From: Bacteroidota bacterium
GTDB lineage: Bacteria > Bacteroidota > Rhodothermia > JANXDC01
Assembly (NCBI GenBank): GCA_025059945.1
Contig: JANXDC010000004.1
Location: forward strand, 62,001 to 126,000
Direction: 5' to 3'
DNA: 64,000 bases
In this document: positions 1-12,774 of the stretch, piece by piece
How the letters are laid out: each line of letters begins with the position of its first letter
Numbering within the stretch: the stretch's first letter is position 1
Translations under genes and position numbers: made by a program
The notes under the pieces: generated by a model
What the model was told of the DNA's origin: nothing
Seen by the model: only the letters and a program-made list of their open reading frames with translations
Database searches by the model: none

Positions 1-640
1 TCACCCCCAAGGCGACCGGAAAACGCCGGTTGTAGCGCTCGAAGGTCAGCAGCAAGGCGGCCGTGCCCAATCCAACGCCGGCCGCCCAGGGGTTGGCCTC
101 GGGCAGGCGGCTGAGCGTTTGCCAGAGCCTACCCGGAAACCAGCTGCCCGATGGGGCCGGCACGCCGAGCAGATGGTGCAGCTGGCCAAGCCCAATAAGC
201 AGGCCCGCGCCGATCGTAAAGCCCAAGAAGGCCGATTCGGGCACAAAACGCACTAGCCCTCCCAGGCGCAACAAGCCGAAGGCCAGCCGGATGAGCCCCA
301 CCAGAAGCGTAAAGGCGAAGACAAGCTCCAGAAACGCCGGGCTGTTCGCAAGGGCCGACAAGGCGGCGGCCGTAAGCAGGGAGGCCGAGTTCGTGGGTCC
401 CGTGTTGACGAAGGGCGAGCTCCCCCAGAGCGCGGCTACGGCCGAGGCCGTGATCGCCGCGTAAAGCCCGTAGACGGGGGGCACGCCGGCCAGGATCGCA
501 TAGGCCATGACCTGTGGGATGGCGAAAACGGCCACCGTAAGCCCCGCCTGCAGATCCAGGCGCAGCTTGTGGGCGTCGTAGCGCCGCAGGTCCTCAAGAA
601 AAGGGGCCGGATGGATCCGGTCTTCTGGCGGATGGATCAT
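1..640 (-). CDS. SulP-family sulfate/anion permease, N-terminal part (runs off window edge)
   Basis: An open frame reads from an ATG at 640 to the window start; about 213 residues are visible and the C-terminal part is missing. Translation shows the SulP hallmark: a cytoplasmic start, then VMAYAILAGVPPVYGLYAAI, then ALWGSSPFVNTGPTNSASLL, which matches the conserved first helices and the anion-site loop of SLC26/SulP carriers. Several hydrophobic segments follow. The start codon overlaps the soeA stop as ATGA (637-640), so translation is probably coupled to the sulfite dehydrogenase. The known family moves sulfate, bicarbonate and similar anions; export of the sulfate or sulfite made by its neighbours is my inference. 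Whether a STAS domain follows cannot be seen. Confidence 0.88.
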   Translation of the reverse strand, partial: MIHPPEDRIHPAPFLEDLRRYDAHKLRLDLQAGLTVAVFAIPQVMAYAILAGVPPVYGLYAAITASAVAALWGSSPFVNTGPTNSASLLTAAALSALANSPAFLELVFAFTLLVGLIRLAFGLLRLGGLVRFVPESAFLGFTIGAGLLIGLGQLHHLLGVPAPSGSWFPGRLWQTLSRLPEANPWAAGVGLGTAALLLTFERYNRRFPVALGV

Positions 641-3534
641 GGCCCTTTCCCGCCGGGACCGAGCTCCGCCTCAGCAGAAGAGACGTAGAAGGCCTCCGTG
701 GCGGGGCGGAAGGGGCGGTTCAGCCATAGCGGGCGCCGTAGGTTATGGGGGCCTGGTCCGGGGCGCGTGAGGGCTAGCCACTGCTTGTAGATCGCAAAGG
801 CCTTTTCCGTGTCCACGAACACGTCCCCGTAGCGGTCCTCGGGTCGAGCCGGCTCGATCCGGCACCACTGATGCCAGCAGTGCATGCCCGAGATGGGGTC
901 CGGGTGCACCGCGTGCGTGAGGTTCTGGTGCACCCCGCCGTCGCGCCAGAAGATCCGCTTCGAGTCGGGATCGGCGCTCTCGAAGGGCTCTATGCCCTGC
1001 GCCACGCGCATACGCCACTGGCCCGGGCCAAGCTCTTCGATGCGCACCGTGTTCGTAGCCCATCGATTGCCCGGAGGGTCTTGTTCGCGACGCCAACGCC
1101 CGATGTGGTGCGAGCAGGCCACGATGCCCGGTTTGACGGCCTCCGTCACCCAGACGCGGTCGACGAAGTAGCCGATCTCGGTCGTAACGCGCACCAGATC
1201 GCCTGTGCGCAACCCCAACCGGGCGGCATCCGAGGTGTGGATCCAGATCGGGTTGCGATGCGAAAGCTCCACCAGGTATTTGGCGTTTCCGCTTCGGGTG
1301 TGGATCAGGGTCGGCAGCCGGAAGGTGGGCAAGAGCAGAAACTCCCCGCGTTCTCGGTTGATGCGGTCTCGATGTACGTGGCTTTTGATGTAAACGGGGA
1401 TCGCGTACTCAGACCAGCCCCAGTCGACCATGGTCTGCGAGTAGAACTCCTGCTTGCGCGTTGGCGTGGGGAATCCGACTCGGATCTGACCTTTATACCA
1501 GACGCCCACGGCTTCGCGCTCCCCGTCGGAGCCGCGCACGTAGGCGATGTGCGTCTCCGGATCGATCTCGGCCCTCTGGGCGAGTTCCTCCGGGATCGGG
1601 TCTAAGTGCTTCTGGTATACCTGCCGTTTGACCTCGAAGGCGCCGTAGCGGCGCATGTATTCCAGAGGATCGAGCCCCTCCCGCGCGGCCGCCTCAGGTA
1701 GTCCGGGCACGTGTTCGAAGATGTAGCGGTAGTATTCCTCAATCGTCATTTTCTCCCCTGCTCGGTAGGGGGACTCAAAATGCCGCCGGATGCCCAGGTG
1801 GCCGTCCGGATCGATGCGCCAGGAGAGCTCGATCCAGAACTCGTCCTCCTCCCAGACCTCGCCCGGGTTGGCTTCGTATGTGTAGCGCACCGGGCGGCCC
1901 TGTCGGCGCAGGGCCTCGCGCAGCACGGGCTGTCGGAAGCCAATCCAGATGCCCGAATGGGTCTCGTAGCTTACGATGTCGTGTCGTTCTGAGGCGTGTC
2001 CCATCGGAAGCACGTAGTCGGCCCAGTAGGCGGTCTCGTTCCACGTGGGGGTCAGGGCCACGTGCAGGCCGATTTTGGACTCGTCGCGCAGGGCCTCGAT
2101 CCAGGAGAAGCCATCCGGGTACGTCCAGACCGGGTTGAAGACCCGCGTAAAGTAGACCTCAAGCCGCCCTCGGCCTTCCTTCAGAAAATGGGGCAACAGG
2201 AAGCTCATCTCGTAGTGCGCAAGGGGGTACTCCAGAGGGAAGTGCAGCTCGTTCCAGAAGCGCGTAGCCGGCGGCACATTCGGCACCGTGGGCTTGAACT
2301 TGTTCCAGGCGCTCGGGCTTGTGCCTCCATAGGTTCCGACGGAGCCCGTGAGCACGTTCAGGAAGTGCAGGGCGCGCGCCGTAGCCCAGCCGCCCAGGTT
2401 GCCGCTTGAGGACGAGCGCCAGATGTGCGTGGCAAAGCGCGAGCCCGCCTCCCCGATCTCGCGGGCCACCGCGATGATGAGTTCCGGGTCGATTTCGGCC
2501 TCGCGTGCGGCGAACTCGGGCGTGAACGCCGCGTATTCCTCGATCAGGGCCTCGATGAAGGCCTCAAAGGTGCGCGGTCTGTTTGGATGCCGCGCCCGCA
2601 GGTAGTCGTGCCAGTTGACCCAGTGCTCCAGAAACTCCCGATCGTAGCGCCCTTCGATAAGCAGAATACGGGCCATGCTCAGCAGCACCGCCGCCTCCGA
2701 GCCCGGGTAGGTGGGCAGCCAATAGTCGGCCAGGCTGGCCGTGTTCGACAGCCTCGGGTCCATGACGGCCAGCTTGGCTCCGCGCATCTTGCCCTCGATG
2801 ATGCGCTGGGCGTGCGGGTTGAAGTAATGGCCCGTTTCCAGGTGCGAGCTCAGCAGCAGGATAAAGCGCGCGTTGGCGTGATCCGGTGAGGGCCGATCAT
2901 AACCTTGCCAGATCGCGTATCCGAACCGGGCCCCGGAGGAGCAGATGTTCGTGTGGCTGTTGTGGCCGTCTACGTTCCAGGCCGCCAGCACGCGCTCCAT
3001 GTAGCCTTCATGACCCGGGCGGCCGACGTGGTAGACGACCTCGTTGTTGCGGCCCTCCGAGAGCGCTCTGCGAATGCGGCCTGCGATGTCCTCCAGGGCC
3101 TCCTCCCACGAGACGCGCTCCCACTGGCCTGAGCCCCGCGGCCCCTTGCGGCGCAGCGGATACAGGATCCGGTCGGGATCCGTGAGCTGGTTGATCGTAG
3201 CCGGCCCCTTGGCGCAGTTGCGGCCCCGCGAGCCGGGGTGATAGGGGTTGCCCTCTAGCTTGCGCACCTGACCGGTGTCCTTGTCGATGTAGGCCAGCAG
3301 GCCGCAGCCGGCCTCGCAGTTGAAGCAGATCGTGGGCACGATCATGTACCGGCGCCGCAAACGCCGAGGCCAGGCTTTGGGATCGTATTCCTCCCACTCG
3401 TCCCAGCGCTCCATGGGGGGATATCGTCGCAGGCCGCTTCCCGGCTCCAGTCGAGGCAGCGGCTCGCCGTTGCGCTCCAAGCGCGGGATCAACCGGAGGG
3501 CCTCGGCCGCGCGTTCGATCCAGCTTTTCGCCAT
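637..3534 (-). CDS. soeA: Molybdopterin oxidoreductase, SoeA-like sulfite dehydrogenase catalytic subunit
   Basis: A 965-residue protein of the DMSO-reductase superfamily. Near the N-terminus it has the [4Fe-4S] motif Cys70-x2-Cys73-x3-Cys77 and Cys107 (CFNCEAGC ... NCAKG). Molybdopterin-binding domains follow, and the candidate Mo ligand is Cys198 in HTNICSSGAR. No twin-arginine signal is present, so the protein is predicted cytoplasmic, as in SoeABC of purple sulfur bacteria, and unlike periplasmic thiosulfate or tetrathionate reductases. The next gene upstream encodes the Fe-S and membrane partners, 13 bases away. TusA, DsrE2 and rhodanese neighbours favour sulfite oxidation to sulfate. 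Polysulfide or tetrathionate reduction is the main alternative; sequence alone does not settle direction. Confidence 0.82.
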   Translation of the reverse strand: MAKSWIERAAEALRLIPRLERNGEPLPRLEPGSGLRRYPPMERWDEWEEYDPKAWPRRLRRRYMIVPTICFNCEAGCGLLAYIDKDTGQVRKLEGNPYHPGSRGRNCAKGPATINQLTDPDRILYPLRRKGPRGSGQWERVSWEEALEDIAGRIRRALSEGRNNEVVYHVGRPGHEGYMERVLAAWNVDGHNSHTNICSSGARFGYAIWQGYDRPSPDHANARFILLLSSHLETGHYFNPHAQRIIEGKMRGAKLAVMDPRLSNTASLADYWLPTYPGSEAAVLLSMARILLIEGRYDREFLEHWVNWHDYLRARHPNRPRTFEAFIEALIEEYAAFTPEFAAREAEIDPELIIAVAREIGEAGSRFATHIWRSSSSGNLGGWATARALHFLNVLTGSVGTYGGTSPSAWNKFKPTVPNVPPATRFWNELHFPLEYPLAHYEMSFLLPHFLKEGRGRLEVYFTRVFNPVWTYPDGFSWIEALRDESKIGLHVALTPTWNETAYWADYVLPMGHASERHDIVSYETHSGIWIGFRQPVLREALRRQGRPVRYTYEANPGEVWEEDEFWIELSWRIDPDGHLGIRRHFESPYRAGEKMTIEEYYRYIFEHVPGLPEAAAREGLDPLEYMRRYGAFEVKRQVYQKHLDPIPEELAQRAEIDPETHIAYVRGSDGEREAVGVWYKGQIRVGFPTPTRKQEFYSQTMVDWGWSEYAIPVYIKSHVHRDRINRERGEFLLLPTFRLPTLIHTRSGNAKYLVELSHRNPIWIHTSDAARLGLRTGDLVRVTTEIGYFVDRVWVTEAVKPGIVACSHHIGRWRREQDPPGNRWATNTVRIEELGPGQWRMRVAQGIEPFESADPDSKRIFWRDGGVHQNLTHAVHPDPISGMHCWHQWCRIEPARPEDRYGDVFVDTEKAFAIYKQWLALTRPGPGPHNLRRPLWLNRPFRPATEAFYVSSAEAELGPGGKGP

Positions 3535-3547
3535 GGCCGTCTTCTCC

Positions 3548-5209
3548 TTACGCTAGCGGGATGAGCTGAGGGGCGCGCACCCACAGGTGTTCTATGGGCA
3601 AAAGGGCCGCAAGCAGCGCCAGGCCGAAAAGGGCTAAAGCCCAAGCGGGCCATCCTAGCCAAAGCCCTAGCAGAAGCCCCAAGATCGGCAGCACATGTCC
3701 GATCCATACCGCGTTCCAGAACAGGCGCCGGTAGTAGCCGCGCGTGATCATGCTTACGACCAGATGCGCATCTCGCGTCGGATGCGGCACAAGCAGCTCG
3801 GCGGCCATTACAAGCAAGGCGAGCAGGCCCGATCCCAAGCTCACCCAGGCAAACACTCGCCCCTCTAAGCCTTCGAGTGCCGCCACAGCAAGGCCCACAG
3901 AGCCGCCGGCCACAAGGGCGTGCACGAACATATGGGGCACCAGGAGAGGGCTTTGCCAGAAGTCGCGCCCCTTTGCCTGCGCAAACAGGAAGGCCGTGTA
4001 GATGGCCACTCCGACGGCCGTAGGATAGCTGAGCAGGCGGGCGGCTTCTTCCAGGGCTGCAAGGTTTAGCCAGCGTGCTCCCATCCAGAGGCTGAGCAGC
4101 GCCCCGTAGAAGGTGATCAGGTAGCCGCCCCGGACAAGCCAAGAGCGCTTTTGGGGCCGCAGCAGCACATACAAGAACCGATCGGGTCGGTCTAGGTCCT
4201 TGATGAGAAGCAGCCCGGTAAGGGCCAAAAACAGCAGGGCTACGATCCCCAAGGCCCACTCGGCCATCGCGGAAAGGCGTACTAGCCCCAGATCCTGCAG
4301 CAGAAGCGGCACCAAGAAGGCCCCCGCAGCGATGGCCTTGGTCCACACGTAGGCCGATACCTCCCAGCCCCAGAGCACGCCCTTGCGCGGTGCGTCGTAG
4401 GCGCGCCGTATGTGCTCCTGGCCGTAGACGCTGCGTTGCATGCGGAGCAGGGGATCTTCCTCCTGATGCCGCACTTCCTTGGCCACTTTGCGTTCCGCCT
4501 CGGCCCAGCCCGCGGGCAGAACGGCCAGCTCCTGCACCCATCTGCTCGTGTCCTGGCCGTTTTGAGGTCGGCCGGCTTGGGGGGCGAAGTGGCCCACCCC
4601 CCTTGCCTGGGCGCTCCAGACGTAGTCGGCCCCCGGGGGTGCGGCCAGGGGATCCAGGGAGGCGGTATCCCCGTCGATATACCACAGCTTGGGCAAGGTG
4701 CCCTTTTCGGGTTTGCGCACCTGCACGGCTTCACGGGCCAGCAGCTGGCTGATCTCCGAGTTCGGGTCGTCCAGATCCCCGGCAATGATGGCGTGTTCAG
4801 GGCAGACAACCACGCAGGCCGGCTCCAGGCCTAAGTCGATACGGTGCGCGCAGTAGTTGCACTTGGCCGCCGTATGCGTTTCCGGATCGATATAAAGCGC
4901 ATCGTAGGGACAGGCCTGCATGCAGGATTTGCATCCGATGCAACGTTGGGAGTCGAAGTCCACGATCCCGTCGGGCCGCACAAAGAGCGCCTCCACAGGG
5001 CATATCTCCACACATGGGGCCTCGGCGCAGTGGTTGCAGCGGTGTACGGCGAAAAGCCGGCGCGTGTTCGGATACCGGCCCTTCTCGACGTATTTGACCC
5101 AGGTGCGGTTGACGCCGAGCGGGATTTCGTGCTCCGCCTTGCAGGCCACCGTGCAGGCGTGACAGCCGATGCACTTGCGATTGTCGATGATAAAGCCGTA
5201 GGTAGCCAT
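3548..5209 (-). CDS. Fused Fe-S electron-transfer and NrfD/DmsC-type membrane subunit (SoeB-SoeC fusion)
   Basis: A 553-residue two-part protein. Residues 1-145 carry sixteen cysteines in four ferredoxin-type groups (Cys13/16/19/23, 58/61/66/70, 90/93/96/100, 117/120/132/136), enough for four [4Fe-4S] clusters as in DmsB/SoeB. A linker leads to about eight hydrophobic helices from about residue 285 to the end, resembling the quinone-reacting anchors DmsC/SoeC. In most organisms these are two genes. Electrons from SoeA would pass along the clusters to the quinone pool at the membrane. The start at 5209 has an AGGGAG-type ribosome site upstream. There is a 13-base gap to soeA, so one operon and probably one complex. 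Confidence 0.88.
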   Translation of the reverse strand: MATYGFIIDNRKCIGCHACTVACKAEHEIPLGVNRTWVKYVEKGRYPNTRRLFAVHRCNHCAEAPCVEICPVEALFVRPDGIVDFDSQRCIGCKSCMQACPYDALYIDPETHTAAKCNYCAHRIDLGLEPACVVVCPEHAIIAGDLDDPNSEISQLLAREAVQVRKPEKGTLPKLWYIDGDTASLDPLAAPPGADYVWSAQARGVGHFAPQAGRPQNGQDTSRWVQELAVLPAGWAEAERKVAKEVRHQEEDPLLRMQRSVYGQEHIRRAYDAPRKGVLWGWEVSAYVWTKAIAAGAFLVPLLLQDLGLVRLSAMAEWALGIVALLFLALTGLLLIKDLDRPDRFLYVLLRPQKRSWLVRGGYLITFYGALLSLWMGARWLNLAALEEAARLLSYPTAVGVAIYTAFLFAQAKGRDFWQSPLLVPHMFVHALVAGGSVGLAVAALEGLEGRVFAWVSLGSGLLALLVMAAELLVPHPTRDAHLVVSMITRGYYRRLFWNAVWIGHVLPILGLLLGLWLGWPAWALALFGLALLAALLPIEHLWVRAPQLIPLA

Positions 5210-5264
5210 GGTCCGAAAACCTCTCTCCCTGCGCCCGAGGGGCTACTGAAACGGGCCCCGCTTC

Positions 5265-5849
5265 TTAGATGAAGAGCGTGATCTTGGATTTCGAGGCGTC
5301 CGCTAGGTAGGTCGCCACCCCGCCCAGCTCCAGGCCCGGTAAGAGCTCCTCTTCCCGGATGCCCATGACGTCCATGCTCATGGCGCAGGCCACTACGCGT
5401 ACACCCAGCTCGCGCGCCAGTTGGAAAAGCTCCTCCAGCGACTGCACCCGCTTTTGGCGCATGACGGCTCGCATCATGCGCGCCCCGATGCCGCCGAAGT
5501 TCATCTGCGAAGGCCCCAGCTGGCGCATGTTCTGGGGCAGCATGAGGCTGAAGAGCTTTTCCGTGAAGCGCTTGCCCCGCAGCGTGGCGTGATTTTTTAT
5601 CACGCTCAGCCCCCAGAACGTAAAGAAGACCGAGACCTGCATGCCCATCGAGGCGGCCCCGGTGGCGATGATGAGCGCGGCCATAGCCTTGTCCAGGTTG
5701 CCGCTAAAGCAAATGATGGCCACGCGGTTTTCGGGCAGATGCCGCTGCACGCGGCGCATCTCCCGCTCATAACGCGCCTCCAGGGCCTCTAGGCGCTGGC
5801 TCAGCTCCTGCAGCCGGGCCTCCAGGTCTTGTGTGACGATCTCGGCCAT
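5265..5849 (-). CDS. DsrE/DsrF-like (DsrE2-type) sulfur-carrier family protein
   Basis: A 194-residue protein starting at 5849, chosen because GGGAGGAGGAACC directly precedes this ATG; a longer frame upstream overlaps tusA and lacks family similarity. It has a short N-terminal coiled-coil-like stretch, then a DsrE fold with AIICFSGNLDKAMAALIIAT, a methionine-rich middle (LGPSQMNFGGIGARMM) and VACAMSMDVMGI, whose cysteine matches the conserved cysteine of DsrE2 proteins. The family accepts and passes persulfide sulfur, often next to TusA and rhodanese genes, and may be membrane-associated. It lies 22 bases downstream of tusA. The partner protein is inferred from context only. Confidence 0.88.
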   Translation of the reverse strand: MAEIVTQDLEARLQELSQRLEALEARYEREMRRVQRHLPENRVAIICFSGNLDKAMAALIIATGAASMGMQVSVFFTFWGLSVIKNHATLRGKRFTEKLFSLMLPQNMRQLGPSQMNFGGIGARMMRAVMRQKRVQSLEELFQLARELGVRVVACAMSMDVMGIREEELLPGLELGGVATYLADASKSKITLFI

Positions 5850-5871
5850 GGTTCCTCCTCCCAAGAATGGC

Positions 5872-6132
5872 TTATCCTTCCACGCGGCGAACGTAGTGGG
5901 CGTATACGCGCCGGCCCTGTTCGTCGGTGTACTCTTCTTGCTTGACGAGCTCAATGGATTCGTCCGTTTCCGCCCAGCCTTTAAAGTCCAGTACTGAGCC
6001 GCGGTCGGTGGCAAGCACCTTCAGGACCTGACCTACGGGGATTTGCTTAATGGCGCGGTGCGCGTTGACCAAGGGCATGGGACATTGCAGGCCCCGGGCG
6101 TCGAGCTCCTGTGCGATGACGAAGTCCTTCAT
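5872..6132 (-). CDS. tusA: TusA/SirA-family sulfur carrier protein
   Basis: A small 86-residue protein with the diagnostic N-terminal motif RGLQCPMPLV, in which Cys17 of the CPxP box carries the persulfide. Size and fold match TusA. In E. coli TusA relays sulfur for tRNA thiolation; in sulfur oxidisers a TusA encoded beside rhodanese and DsrE genes instead feeds cytoplasmic sulfur oxidation. This copy sits between the rhodanese-MBL gene (12 bases upstream) and dsrE2, so the oxidation role is favoured. The C-terminal third is longer and more charged than in E. coli TusA. Confidence 0.93.
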   Translation of the reverse strand: MKDFVIAQELDARGLQCPMPLVNAHRAIKQIPVGQVLKVLATDRGSVLDFKGWAETDESIELVKQEEYTDEQGRRVYAHYVRRVEG

Positions 6133-6144
6133 AGCAGCCTCCCT

Positions 6145-7329
6145 TCATGAAGCGTAAGCGCCCGCAAGGGCGCAGATGTTTTTGCCGAGCTCTAGTTCGT
6201 TTAAGCCCTCCTCATCCAGCTCAAGCAGCCCCGCGTTTACGCGCTTGATGTCCACATATTGGGGCGGAAATTCCGGCAGGTGGGCCAAGAGGTGCCGCAC
6301 AAAGCTTGATTCCTCTTCCATGAGGCTTAGGTCTGCGTTGCTGCGCCGCAGCTGGCCTAAAGGAGCGGCAAAAAGCCCATCTGTGCGCTGCTCGCGGGCG
6401 GCCGAGGCGTAGTGGCCGGGCAGCACGATCGTGTCCTCGGGCAGGTTCAGGAGCCGGCGCAGGGACCGGTAGTGCAGAGGCGCCCATGTTTCCCCTCTAC
6501 CCCCCAGATCGGGCCGGGCGACGCTCTGGATAAACAGGCTATCGCCGGTAAAGAGGTAGCGGCGTTCGGCCTGCACGAGGAAGGCCGTATTGCCCAGCGT
6601 ATGGCCGGGGATGTGCAGAACCTCCAAGGTGGCCGACCCTATGGAAAAGCGCATCCCATCTTGTAGGTACGCAAACGGGATCGCAGCCGGCAGCACGTCG
6701 ATCGGGTGGATCCCGTCGTAGGGGTGCAGATAGTACGGGGCGCCCGTGCGGGCCGCAAGGGCCGGGCCGCCGGAAACGTGGTCCGCGTGCGCGTGCGTAT
6801 CCAAAATGGCCTGGACCTTAAGGTCGTGCTGCGCGATGAGCGCAAGCACCGGCCCCAGATGCCGCGGCGGGTCGATGACGAGCGCCTCTTGTCCGGAGGC
6901 GACCACGTAATGCAGGCAGCCGCGCGCGAAGCGATCCAATTGCCAGATCCGCACCGTATCCGATGCGGATTCCGGCAGCAGACGGCTCCGGTATGCCGAG
7001 CCCCAAGCTTCCATGCCGCCGGCGAGGTTGGCCACCTGAAAGCCGCGGGGCCTTAGCAGCTCCTGCGCGACCCAATCCGATGCCCCGCCCTTGGCGCAGA
7101 CAACCAAAATCGGCCCCCGGCCTAGCTCCGCTTCCACGCGCCGTGCGAAGGCCTCCTCATCTTCCAGAGCCTCGAAATACGGCAGGTTGAGCATCTTGGG
7201 GCTCGTGCGGCCCTCAAGGCGCCAGCGTCGAAACTCCTCCTCGTTGCGCACATCGAGCACGGCCAGCAAGACCCCTTGAGCCAACATGTCGGCCACTTCC
7301 TCTGGCCTGTATTGCTCTTTCCAGTGCAT
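6145..7329 (-). CDS. Rhodanese + metallo-beta-lactamase fusion, persulfide dioxygenase-like
   Basis: A 394-residue protein. Residues 1-115 form a rhodanese domain with active cysteine Cys78 (VVCAKGGASDW). Residues 120-330 form a metallo-beta-lactamase fold with THAHADH (His179, His181, Asp183, His184), His243 in HIPGH, Asp263 in FTGDSLF and His306, the layout of ETHE1-type persulfide dioxygenases. The domain order is the reverse of CstB, where the dioxygenase comes first. The ATG at 7329 is preferred over the one at 7359: AAAGGA lies 8 bases upstream, and the -10 box at 7362-7367 would put transcription start downstream of 7359. It is the first gene of the minus-strand sulfur operon. ETHE1 proteins turn glutathione or other persulfides into sulfite; substrate here is inferred. 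Confidence 0.85.
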   Translation of the reverse strand: MHWKEQYRPEEVADMLAQGVLLAVLDVRNEEEFRRWRLEGRTSPKMLNLPYFEALEDEEAFARRVEAELGRGPILVVCAKGGASDWVAQELLRPRGFQVANLAGGMEAWGSAYRSRLLPESASDTVRIWQLDRFARGCLHYVVASGQEALVIDPPRHLGPVLALIAQHDLKVQAILDTHAHADHVSGGPALAARTGAPYYLHPYDGIHPIDVLPAAIPFAYLQDGMRFSIGSATLEVLHIPGHTLGNTAFLVQAERRYLFTGDSLFIQSVARPDLGGRGETWAPLHYRSLRRLLNLPEDTIVLPGHYASAAREQRTDGLFAAPLGQLRRSNADLSLMEEESSFVRHLLAHLPEFPPQYVDIKRVNAGLLELDEEGLNELELGKNICALAGAYAS

Positions 7330-7350
7330 GGCGCAGATCCTTTCTTTGGG

Positions 7351-7388
7351 ATACTCCATACAGTATATAAAGCCCGAGACAAAATCAA
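7351..7388 (-). promoter_or_regulatory. Predicted promoter and candidate operator of the sulfur operon
   Basis: On the minus strand TTGATT (7383-7388) and TATACT (7362-7367) are separated by 15 bases, a slightly short sigma-70-like promoter whose start point would fall near 7355, about 25 bases before the ATG at 7329. An inverted repeat, ATACT-N6-AGTAT (7351-7366), covers the -10 box and start point. Placement over the promoter and the CsoR/CstR-type repressor gene next door suggest a repressor site; this is inference. Confidence 0.5.
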
Positions 7389-7401
7389 GCTCCCAGGGAG
7401 C

Positions 7402-7704
7402 CTATAAATAACGACGCAGCACCTCGGTAAAGCGGCGCAAGTTCTGGTGTTCCTCGTCGGTTAACCCCTCTGGGGCAACGCATTCATGGATGAGCATCTG
7501 CGAGAGCAGCTCGGTGAAGGCTTTATGCAGCGCCTGCCGGGCGGCGGCCATCTGTTGGGCGATGGCCACGCAGTCAGCCCCTTCGCGGATCATGCGCTGC
7601 AGGGCTCGGATTTGGCCCTCTACGCGGGCGAGCCGGCGCAGGATTTCGGCTCTTTCTTGTATTGCAGGGGTTTCAGCGGACGAAGCGGCATTTGCAGTGG
7701 GCAT
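7402..7704 (-). CDS. CsoR/CstR/RcnR-family repressor, probably persulfide-sensing (CstR-like)
   Basis: A 100-residue, all-helical DUF156 protein with the family opening RRLARVEGQIRALQRMI. Cys45 and Cys75 are the only cysteines. The copper-binding histidine expected between the two cysteines in CsoR is Met70 here, and the pair resembles the two reactive thiols of CstR, although Cys75 is one residue further along than in the textbook spacing. The start at 7704 is preferred; a frame open to 7863 would add 53 residues without family similarity and would cross the candidate operator. Its position between two sets of sulfur genes supports sulfane-sulfur sensing. A metal-sensing role cannot be excluded. 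Confidence 0.82.
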   Translation of the reverse strand: MPTANAASSAETPAIQERAEILRRLARVEGQIRALQRMIREGADCVAIAQQMAAARQALHKAFTELLSQMLIHECVAPEGLTDEEHQNLRRFTEVLRRYL

Positions 7705-7734
7705 CCGGACCGTCTCCACATTCTGATCGCGTTC

Positions 7735-7775
7735 AGAAGATATATATTCCCCCGGGGGTACGCAAGCGGGTGACA
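7735..7775 (-). promoter_or_regulatory. Candidate autoregulatory operator/promoter between cstR-like gene and divergent sulfur genes
   Basis: The sequence TTCCCCCGGGGGTA (7747-7760) is a GC-tract palindrome with near-symmetric T/A ends, like the TACCC...GGGTA sites of CsoR-family repressors. Read toward the repressor gene it sits between TTGCGT and TATCTT, 17 bases apart, so a bound repressor would block RNA polymerase. It may also control the divergent gene at 7835. No biochemical support can be given from sequence alone. Confidence 0.45.
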
Positions 7776-7834
7776 CTGCAGAATCCCCAAGGCATCCAAC
7801 GGCTTGAAGCTGGACAAAACAGAAGGCGAGCAAG

Positions 7835-8362
7835 ATGCGAGGGCAACTTCTGTGGTTGTTCACGGTGGGCTTGGCCTCCAGTCTTTGGGCTCAGGCGCCG
7901 GCTCAGGTCTCCGGTTGGGTTCAAGTGCGGCCGGATCTGGCCTGCGGAGGGCAGCCTTCGGAGGCCGCCCTGCGAGCCCTGGCCGCGGCCGGATATCGGA
8001 CCATCATCGACAACCGCCTGCCCGGGGAGCTGCGGCCCTTTGATGAGGCGCAGCTGGTCGCAAGCCTTGGGCTTCGTTACGTTTCGATCCCGGTGGGTAG
8101 GCCGGAGTCGATCACCCCGGAGCTGGTGCGCGCTTTTGCTCGGGCCATAGAGGAAAGTCCCAAGCCGATTTACATGCATTGCGCTTCGGGTAACCGGTCC
8201 GCTCAGCTTTACTACGGATATCTGCGCCTGAAGGGCCATAGCCCCGAGCAAGCCAAAGCGGAGGCCAGGCGGGCCGGTCTGCGCGACACCACGGCGCTGC
8301 CGTATGTAGAGCGGGCCGTACAGTATTGGCTTAGGCAACCTAAACGAGGGGGGACTCCGTAG
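7835..8362 (+). CDS. Secreted DUF442/TIGR01244-family protein (Blh-type phosphatase-like or sulfurtransferase domain)
   Basis: A 175-residue protein with an N-terminal signal peptide (about residues 1-20, cleavage after WAQ). The mature part contains SGWVQVRPDLACGGQPSE and IYMHCASGNRSAQ. The Cys116-x4-Arg121 loop is the short form seen in DUF442 domains and rhodaneses, not the Cys-x5-Arg of true tyrosine phosphatases. DUF442 is fused to the persulfide dioxygenase-like Blh protein in the BigR sulfide-detoxification operon, which fits the neighbourhood. Export to the periplasm is unusual for that role. Gene 8365 follows after 2 bases, so they form one operon. The substrate is unknown. Confidence 0.72.
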   Translation: MRGQLLWLFTVGLASSLWAQAPAQVSGWVQVRPDLACGGQPSEAALRALAAAGYRTIIDNRLPGELRPFDEAQLVASLGLRYVSIPVGRPESITPELVRAFARAIEESPKPIYMHCASGNRSAQLYYGYLRLKGHSPEQAKAEARRAGLRDTTALPYVERAVQYWLRQPKRGGTP

Positions 8363-8364
8363 CG

Positions 8365-8718
8365 ATGAGCTTGTGGTCTTTTTTTCGATCTTCTGCCCCT
8401 TATAAAGAGGTAAGCCCTCAGGAGGCGCACGAGCGCATGCAACGGGGCGCCGTGCTAGTGGACGTGCGCGAATCCGAGGAGCTGCGCGAGGAGGGGAGCG
8501 TGCCTGGGGCTGTGCACAACCCGCTGAGCGCTTTCGATCCCGAAAGGTTGCCGCGCGACCGAGAGGCCGAGGTGCTCTTTTTGTGCCGCTCCGGCAACCG
8601 TTCCGCGCTCGTTGCAGAGGCGGTCGCGCAGCAGCTGGGCTATCAGAACGTCTACAACGTCCGAGGTGGCATCCTCGCCTGGCGTCGGGCGGGCTTGCCA
8701 CTGCGAAACGGTCAATAG
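8365..8718 (+). CDS. Single-domain rhodanese (sulfurtransferase)
   Basis: A 117-residue single rhodanese domain. It has the entry motif VLVDVRESEE, then the active loop CRSGNRS with Cys74, then VYNVRGGILAWRRAGLPL, the normal C-terminal signature. No signal peptide is evident, so it is cytoplasmic. Such proteins bind sulfur as a cysteine persulfide and hand it to acceptors. It is 2 bases after the DUF442 gene and 15 bases before the disulfide oxidoreductase gene, and is likely co-transcribed with both. Confidence 0.93.
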   Translation: MSLWSFFRSSAPYKEVSPQEAHERMQRGAVLVDVRESEELREEGSVPGAVHNPLSAFDPERLPRDREAEVLFLCRSGNRSALVAEAVAQQLGYQNVYNVRGGILAWRRAGLPLRNGQ

Positions 8719-8733
8719 AAAGGGAATGCCAAT

Positions 8734-9387
8734 ATGCCGCTACTACGCGATCAAGAACGCGAGTTGGTACGTCAGGAGCTAGCCGGGCTGCGCGATCCCG
8801 TAAGACTGGTCTACTTCACACAAGAGCTAGAGTGCCAGTATTGCCGCGAGACGCGGCAGCTGCTGGAAGAGGTGGCCGCGTTATCGGATGCGATCTCGCT
8901 TGAGGTCTACAATTTCGCCCTAGATCGGGAGCAGGCTGCCCTGTACGGGGTGGACAAGATCCCGGCCACGGTCGTGATGGGGGACTCCGATGTGGGGATC
9001 CGCCTCTACGGGATCCCCTCAGGATACGAGTTCGCCAGCCTCCTTGAGGCGATCCGGCTTCTGTCCACGGGCCAAACCGGGCTCTCGGAGGAGCTCATCG
9101 AGCGGGTTCGGCGGCTGGATCAGCCGGTGGACCTGCAGGTCTTCGTGACCCCTACGTGTCCGTATTGCCCGCGGGCTGTGGTCACCGCCTTCCGTTTCGC
9201 CTACCTTAACCCCCATGTGCGGGCGGCCATGGTGGAGGCGATCGAGTTTCCGCACCTGGCCAACCGTTATCAGGTTTATGGGGTGCCTAAGACGGTCATC
9301 AACGAAGTGGAGCACGTCGAGGGGGCCGTGCCCGAGGCCTACCTGCTGGAGGCCATAGAGCGGGCGCTGGCCCGCATACAAGGCTAG
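8734..9387 (+). CDS. Protein disulfide oxidoreductase with two thioredoxin folds (glutaredoxin-like, PDO)
   Basis: A 217-residue cytoplasmic protein made of two thioredoxin-fold halves. The first has Cys34-Gln-Tyr-Cys37 and the second Cys142-Pro-Tyr-Cys145, each followed by a cis-proline segment (KIPATV and GVPKTV). This is the architecture of the PDO proteins common in hyperthermophilic archaea and thermophilic bacteria, where they maintain disulfide bonds in cytoplasmic proteins. Its place at the end of the divergent sulfur operon suggests an added role in reducing protein persulfides or disulfides. A strong terminator follows directly. Confidence 0.9.
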   Translation: MPLLRDQERELVRQELAGLRDPVRLVYFTQELECQYCRETRQLLEEVAALSDAISLEVYNFALDREQAALYGVDKIPATVVMGDSDVGIRLYGIPSGYEFASLLEAIRLLSTGQTGLSEELIERVRRLDQPVDLQVFVTPTCPYCPRAVVTAFRFAYLNPHVRAAMVEAIEFPHLANRYQVYGVPKTVINEVEHVEGAVPEAYLLEAIERALARIQG

Positions 9388-12139: not shown

Positions 12140-12774
12140 CGGGGGAAGCCGGGCAAGCGCGTCACCTTGACGAAGACCGGATCCCTGCGGATCGCTTCCG
12201 GCTGAATCCAGCCCTGTGCAAAGCAGACCTCCAGATGCCGCAGAGCGAGCTCCGGTTTTCCCAAAAGAGCTTCCAGGCGTGCCAGTCCGTAATGCGCTTC
12301 GGGATCCTGAGGCCGCTCCCGAAGCACGGCCTCGAAGGCCTGACGCGCCGGCTCAAAGGCCTGAATCCAAAGCGCGGCCCCGCCCAGGCGAAGCAGCAGG
12401 GTTCGATCCCGGGGGCTGAGCTCCCGGCCTCGTTGATAGGCCTCATAGGCGCCGTCCCAACGCCCCCCAGCCGCCTGCACATCCCCCATGAGGCGCCACC
12501 ACTCGGGATCCGACTCCCCTTGGGCGCGCAGGGCGGTCACCTCAGCCTCGGCCTCGGCCAGCAGCCCCAGACGCAGGTATACTTCCACCCGCATCCGGCG
12601 CGCTGCATACCAATCGGGCCGTTCCCGAAGCAGGCGTTCCAGGCGGGCTCGGGCTTCAATCCAGCGCCCCGCCTCCATAGCCTGACGCACGAGCTCCAGC
12701 TCCGATGCCTGGGCTGTGACTACGGAAAGAAGCCCACCTAGCGTCACTATGCAGCCGACTAATCGGTATTTCAC
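12136..12774 (-). CDS. Secreted tetratricopeptide-repeat protein
   Basis: A 212-residue protein starting with GTG at 12774, preceded by AAAGGT. An N-terminal signal peptide (about residues 1-22, ending VTAQA) is followed by about five TPR-like helix pairs, such as ARLERLLRERPDWYAARRMR and EPARQAFEAVLRERPQDPEA. TPR arrays bind other proteins; no enzymatic motif is present. It is monocistronic, divergent from birA and convergent with the cysteine desulfurase gene. The specific function cannot be told. Confidence 0.85.
   Translation of the reverse strand: MKYRLVGCIVTLGGLLSVVTAQASELELVRQAMEAGRWIEARARLERLLRERPDWYAARRMRVEVYLRLGLLAEAEAEVTALRAQGESDPEWWRLMGDVQAAGGRWDGAYEAYQRGRELSPRDRTLLLRLGGAALWIQAFEPARQAFEAVLRERPQDPEAHYGLARLEALLGKPELALRHLEVCFAQGWIQPEAIRRDPVFVKVTRLPGFPR

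Follow-up and report, generated by a model that had tools for sequence, protein, structure and literature searches.

Can a single, repressor-controlled locus carry out the entire conversion of persulfide sulfur to exported sulfate? This question is raised by a ten-gene island in the 2.14-Mb genome of a Bacteroidota bacterium (GCA_025059945.1), which lies at the beginning of the stretch of 64,000 nucleotides analyzed here (the window; G000:C4:62001-126000). Judging from its sequence, we consider it probable, with odds of roughly three in four, that the island forms a persulfide-induced regulon for the oxidation of sulfane sulfur, in which persulfide would be converted via sulfite to sulfate, electrons would enter the respiratory chain and the product would be exported. 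An earlier note on this DNA had proposed such a pathway, with its own repressor, quinone as the electron acceptor and an export step. The gene content of the locus, the predicted orientation of its molybdenum complex, the catalytic residues of its dioxygenase, the cysteines of its repressor, two conserved operator-like sites and the missing sulfate activation all support this proposal, and it is from these features that we infer the biochemical steps, the sensing mechanism and the direction of SulP transport.

In the proposed scheme, persulfide would be produced by SQR, which is encoded elsewhere in the genome, and by thiol metabolism. Its sulfane sulfur may modify Cys45 and Cys75 of a CstR-like repressor and thereby release the protein from two operators, as suggested by its cysteine pattern and the operator-like sites. 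The rhodanese domain of the fusion protein Rho-PDO, the free rhodanese, TusA and DsrE2 would collect and carry sulfane sulfur, and the Fe(II)-containing MBL domain of Rho-PDO would use O2 to oxidize persulfide to sulfite. A cytoplasm-facing SoeA/SoeBC complex could then oxidize sulfite to sulfate, reducing quinone via its NrfD domain, with SulP exporting the sulfate (or sulfite). Finally, a role in balancing thiols and envelope sulfur may fall to the disulfide oxidoreductase and to the DUF442 protein, which is probably secreted.

Layout of the locus and its conservation

Six genes on the minus strand, encoding Rho-PDO, TusA, DsrE2, the SoeBC fusion, SoeA and SulP, are located downstream of a CsoR-family gene, from which the plus-strand genes for the DUF442 protein, a rhodanese and a disulfide oxidoreductase diverge (Table 1). 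Open reading frames and Pfam/NCBIfam matches confirm all of the genes named in the earlier note, each on the strand it had given. DsrE2 scores 100.6 bits against NF047629, which is below the cut-off of 210. The SulP and SoeA genes overlap by 4 bases, the gaps among the minus-strand genes measure 13, 55, 22 and 12 bases, and 72 bases separate the repressor gene from the Rho-PDO gene. In Blh proteins, the counterpart of the DUF442 protein forms a fusion with the dioxygenase; here it is a separate protein that has a Sec-like signal as read from its sequence.

Table 1. Genes and operator-like sites of the locus (window positions unless stated otherwise).
Feature	Position	Strand	Length	Evidence and remarks
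SulP-family anion transporter	1..640	-		PF00916 6.6e-45; clipped by window start
SulP whole gene	G000:C4:60841-62640		599 aa	Full ORF seen in L003
SoeA-like molybdopterin subunit	637..3534	-	965 aa	Pfam/NCBIfam: molybdopterin oxidoreductase and Fe4S4
SoeB-SoeC fusion	3548..5209	-	553 aa	Pfam/NCBIfam: 4Fe-4S and NrfD; NrfD 6.1e-14
DsrE2 sulfur carrier	5265..5849	-	194 aa	PF13686 (DrsE_2) 1.5e-54
TusA sulfurtransferase	5872..6132	-	86 aa	PF01206 1.9e-17; Cys17 in CPMP
Rho-PDO	6145..7329	-	394 aa	N-terminal rhodanese and Lactamase_B; ETHE1/CstB-type MBL
Operator-like site 2	7351..7366	-		ATACTGTATGGAGTAT; upstream of Rho-PDO
CsoR/CstR-like repressor	7402..7704	-	100 aa	PF02583 (Trns_repr_metal) 1.5e-20
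Operator-like site 1	7746..7761	-		GTACCCCCGGGGGAAT; gap between repressor gene and divergent genes
DUF442/Blh-phosphatase-like protein	7835..8362	+	175 aa	PF04273 1.2e-9; NF040641 1.5e-13
Single-domain rhodanese	8365..8718	+	117 aa	PF00581 1e-17; CRSGNRS loop
Protein disulfide oxidoreductase	8734..9387	+	217 aa	TIGR02187 1.6e-83, 279 bits (cut-off 185); CQYC and CPYC

The nearest named relative is the Bacteroidetes bacterium KatS3mg041, the second genome of the genus, which is complete and encodes a SoeA with 89% identity. The search for the same gene order in a related genome, as suggested in the earlier note, was successful: the KatS3mg041 locus (L034) comprises ten genes in identical order and orientations, with protein identities of 60-89%, so the arrangement is not a product of chance. 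The comparison also helps to define the gene starts. Although its open reading frame opens at 7359, the Rho-PDO gene most likely starts at 7329, because the corresponding codon opens the KatS3mg041 copy and positions 7351-7366 are covered by an operator-like site. The most likely starts of the repressor and DsrE2 genes are at 7704 and 5849, respectively.

A rhodanese-first persulfide dioxygenase candidate

In Rho-PDO, the rhodanese domain comes first and the MBL domain is C-terminal, which reverses the order usual in Bacteroidota (CstB-like proteins of about 470 aa). Only three clear cases of this arrangement were detected among the 297 Bacteroidota genomes searched, comprising the two members of the genus and one further protein (L140). 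Uncharacterized fusions that likewise combine an N-terminal rhodanese with a PDO-like MBL domain are present in cable bacteria, Desulfobulbales and Bacillota (PMC13047784); however, the protein of cable bacteria contains the sequence HXQADY, whereas the full H-x-H-A-D-H is found here.

Rho-PDO retains a T-H-x-H-A-D-H motif and the invariant residues H179, H243, D263, R272, D274 and H306, whose spacing, on which the residue match is based, equals that of H57, H113, D130, R139, D141 and H171 in AcPDO. Mutagenesis has shown that the catalytic residues are essential in the A. caldus enzyme (PMC6060420). The sequence of Rho-PDO thus provides the H, H and D ligands of Fe as well as the R/D/H network essential to a PDO. 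When its AlphaFold2 model (mean pLDDT 73) was submitted to Foldseek, ranks 1-22 were occupied by CstB-type, ETHE1, PDO or uncharacterized MBL chains, and glyoxalase II appeared from rank 23 onward; the score against the GloB model was 86 bits, compared to a cut-off of 201. By both comparisons, Rho-PDO is nearer to PDO than to glyoxalase II.

Relation to known persulfide-responsive systems

The cst operon of S. aureus, the yrk cluster of Bacillus and the ScCsoR-PDO circuit of Streptomyces share with the locus a CsoR-family persulfide sensor, putative in the present case, placed over PDO, rhodanese, TusA/DsrE and an exporter. In these systems, sulfite is exported via TauE and there is no sulfite oxidase, whereas SoeABC and SulP are added here and the rhodanese stands in front of the PDO. 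The yrk cluster of B. licheniformis, which encodes the CstR-like YrkD, DsrE, rhodanese, PDO, TusA, thioredoxin and TauE, was shown to protect against cysteine, sulfide and sulfane sulfur (PMC9918477), and a comparable circuit in S. coelicolor consists of CsoR, PDO, rhodanese and an exporter (PMC7533328). It is conceivable, at somewhat less than even odds, that the locus likewise serves for detoxification, ridding a heterotroph of toxic persulfide and sulfite, with an energy gain through SoeABC being incidental. Its left-half anatomy, which equals that of the yrk cluster, and the Streptomyces precedent speak for this possibility. However, the cst and yrk systems end at exported sulfite, whereas a putative quinone-coupled sulfite oxidase is built in here, and, among 38 well-flanked relatives, 16 combine SoeABC with a PDO-rhodanese fusion. 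Detoxification and a regulon for sulfane-sulfur oxidation are mutually compatible and not exclusive.

The latter numbers come from a BLAST-based count of neighboring genes in 38 SoeA loci flanked on both sides by over 7 kb of sequence. SulP was found near SoeA in 22 and a PDO-rhodanese fusion in 16 of them, with both present in 12, while DsrE2 or TusA occurred in 8 and a single locus had a CsoR gene. In 32 of the 38 loci, SoeA had one or more of SulP, PDO-rhodanese, DsrE2 and TusA in its vicinity, indicating that the catabolic core is recurrent; among the loci surveyed, only those of this genus show the ten-gene arrangement headed by the repressor. The combination, previously suspected to be undescribed, is therefore not rare, and its building blocks are systems already in the literature (PSRLC3/SoeABC; cst/yrk). 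A literature search for TusA, DsrE2, molybdopterin oxidoreductase, rhodanese and CsoR together returned, as its nearest result, work on sulfur disproportionation with four of the five, which speaks weakly for novelty. Each half of the locus is known, since CstR-type control of PDO occurs in Firmicutes and Streptomyces and SoeABC is commonly found with SulP or PDO-rhodanese; the joining of both in one regulon is new.

Sulfite metabolism and the direction of SulP transport

Both the window's genome and KatS3mg041 encode an SQR that resembles the mitochondrial enzyme. We found no Sat-type ATP sulfurylase in the window's genome and no CysD, AprA or DsrA at the family level in either genome, with the AprA model giving only weak matches far below its cut-off. 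Given this gene complement, sulfite cannot pass via APS. Moreover, no known route would allow imported sulfate to be activated, which favors export as the more sensible direction for SulP. Import or exchange is the mode mostly known for SulP proteins. Nevertheless, import of sulfate or another anion is unlikely in the present case, considering the missing Sat- or CysD-type activation, the proximity of SulP to SoeA in 22 of the 38 well-flanked loci and the SulP gene that immediately follows the one further clear rhodanese-first PDO (L140) found in the 297 Bacteroidota genomes. A cytosolic protein with a sulfite-oxidase fold (PF00174; 220 aa, without signal peptide; G000:C15:66797-67228, L135) could share the sulfite step.

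The repressor and its candidate operators

The repressor possesses two cysteines, Cys45 and Cys75, and has a Met residue in place of the ligand His found at position Cys+25 of copper CsoR and FrmR. The same position is occupied by Leu in the L034 relative and by Met in a T. roseum repressor that adjoins its own SoeBC-SoeA genes. Two cysteines and no His at Cys+25 are the hallmarks of the CstR type, with the cysteine spacing of 30 instead of the usual 29 representing a deviation. Both operator-like sites are palindromic and show two mismatches each to ATACCn6GGTAT, the consensus of Streptomyces ScCsoR, a sulfane-sulfur sensor that requires both of its cysteines and binds this sequence (PMC7533328). 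The block containing each site has 15 of 18 bases in common with its L034 counterpart, a value equaled in 0 of 200 shuffles, and the conserved blocks stand in otherwise diverged gaps. The loose motif occurs in chance-like numbers elsewhere in the genome. No matching operator was found upstream of the SQR gene, which is also unlinked to the locus, and a search upstream of the T. roseum CsoR gene revealed no site either. On plasmid pRHL3 of Rhodococcus jostii (L118), by contrast, a perfect and a near-perfect site are located just upstream of an MBL gene, and DsrE2-TusA-SoeBC-SoeA are also clustered. The tandem CsoR-type operators of this plasmid (ATACCCCCATGGGTAT and GTACCCCGGGGGGTAT) are situated at L118:2710-2745 and 12615-12650, and the MBL gene flanks a DsrE2-TusA-SoeBC-SoeA-Mrp cluster.

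A sigma-70 scan detected a promoter-like sequence (TTGACT-17-TACTAT) overlapping site 2 in L034 and no promoter reaching the threshold in the window. A weak terminator-like hairpin lies between the repressor gene and the Rho-PDO gene (window 7386-7404, minus strand); with this hairpin in place, the second operator would be the main switch of the operon.

Among solved structures, copper CsoR and FrmR score as the closest relatives of the repressor, as would be expected of a sensor for copper, nickel or formaldehyde that merely adjoins sulfur genes. We regard this alternative as improbable, however, because both this protein and its L034 relative lack the ligand His at Cys+25 (with Met and Leu, respectively, in its place), genes related to copper or aldehydes are missing from the neighborhood and both operators flank sulfur genes.

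The SoeA/SoeBC molybdenum complex

SoeA contains Cys70/73/77/107 as ligands for one 4Fe-4S cluster, and its Cys198 aligns with the region of the Mo-ligand Cys in Thermus Psr. SoeBC has 16 Cys residues, enough for four 4Fe-4S clusters, and an eight-helix NrfD domain. The complex thus shows the subunit make-up of SoeABC, which has been described as a sulfite:quinone oxidoreductase with peripheral subunits presumed to lie on the cytoplasmic side (PMC8076601). It shares with the SoeABC complexes of Allochromatium, Aquifex and Ruegeria the A/B/C composition, the predicted cytoplasm-facing orientation, a presumably quinone-linked NrfD anchor and the lack of a Tat signal, but its B and C subunits are fused. 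This comparison covers subunit make-up and predicted layout.

A Tat motif was found in none of 87 SoeA homologs, whereas it is present in an Azoarcus homolog, an ArxA-like protein, PhsA and YnfE; SoeA therefore departs from the Psr/Phs/Ttr enzymes with their Tat-exported A subunits. The positive-inside count of SoeBC (16 versus 4 on the Fe-S side) predicts that the Fe-S domain is cytoplasmic, and the anchor controls gave the opposite result (2 versus 10 for Azoarcus and 5 versus 15 for Sulfurovum). The sign was the same in all but one of the SoeBC relatives, the exception (L110) having an extra predicted helix, and a ten-helix control showed no clean fit to the orientation test. Together, the lack of a Tat signal and the predicted cytoplasmic Fe-S domain suggest a sulfite-dehydrogenase layout. 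The Azoarcus KH32C plasmid protein was rejected as a proteobacterial SoeA reference on account of its Tat motif and separate outward-facing anchor, as were alphaproteobacterial plasmid matches, which represent other enzyme types. A Sulfurovum mangrovi plasmid (L115:4844-9169) carries a SoeA relative with 39% identity that is apparently split in two, together with an NrfD anchor of opposite predicted orientation.

In a maximum-likelihood tree, the SoeA family forms a single 100/100 clade, which includes Chlorobiaceae, Haloarchaea and other phyla and stands apart from PhsA, YnfE and others; this tree is limited by long branches and by a reference set without A. vinosum/Aquifex SoeA and TtrA. According to the earlier note, a grouping of SoeA with tetrathionate or polysulfide reductases would have refuted its reading: SoeA is separate from the reductases in the tree, and its distance from TtrA is given by the family model only (112.6 bits, cut-off 1750). 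None of the reductase family models reached its cut-off for the molybdenum complex (PhsA 694, TtrA 1750, TtrB 416). A role of the complex as a reductase of polysulfide, thiosulfate or tetrathionate is highly improbable, since, although PhsA (179.5 bits) and TtrB (196.3 bits) are its top single family matches and Thermus Psr its closest solved structure, both scores fall far below the cut-offs, the neighboring genes are predicted to produce sulfite, and the missing Tat signal, inverted predicted topology and separate clade led us to reject this assignment.

Proteins approximately 55-73% identical to SoeA occur in Bacteroidota, Chlorobiota, KSB1, Calditrichota, Latescibacterota, Gemmatimonadota, Acidobacteriota, SAR324, Thermomicrobiota, Actinomycetota and Haloarchaea. 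The SoeBC-SoeA family spans at least eight phyla, and the BC fusion adjoins SoeA in nearly all relatives' loci. In Natrinema (L117:11011-12171) and Rhodococcus (L118:10799-11968), a gene for an Mrp/NBP35 Fe-S ATPase overlaps the end of SoeA, as if dedicated to maturation of the complex.

Discussion

The closest parallel to the two-gene complex is PSRLC3 (polysulfide-reductase-like complex 3), which has been proposed as an alternative sulfite-oxidizing system of green sulfur bacteria (PMC6338057) and is encoded by two genes (PMC5473276). The Chlorobiaceae loci, which we equate with the published PSRLC3 by this two-gene description, fall within the SoeA clade, consist likewise of a BC fusion and an A subunit, and encode SoeA proteins 66-68% identical to that of the window; several also have DsrE2, TusA or rhodanese genes nearby. 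However, those seen differ from the present locus in having no CsoR gene, PDO fusion or adjoining SulP gene, and rDsr is regarded as the source of their sulfite.

A literature search found no substrate test for the SoeBC-SoeA family. We tentatively suggest, at less than even odds, that the two-gene complex constitutes a distinct sulfite dehydrogenase family that crosses phyla. In this genus, a persulfide sensor may have gained control of it together with a sulfate exporter, forming one regulon leading from sulfane sulfur to exported sulfate, in which DsrE2 and TusA would hand sulfur directly to the rhodanese-first dioxygenase.

Hundreds of genomes, ranging from Bacteroidota to Haloarchaea, encode members of the SoeBC-SoeA family. 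The locus described here offers a plausible complete route from sulfide to sulfate for Bacteroidota and other lineages that lack Sox, Dsr or Apr/Sat, arranged as a single induced unit that would be compact enough for transfer to a laboratory host.
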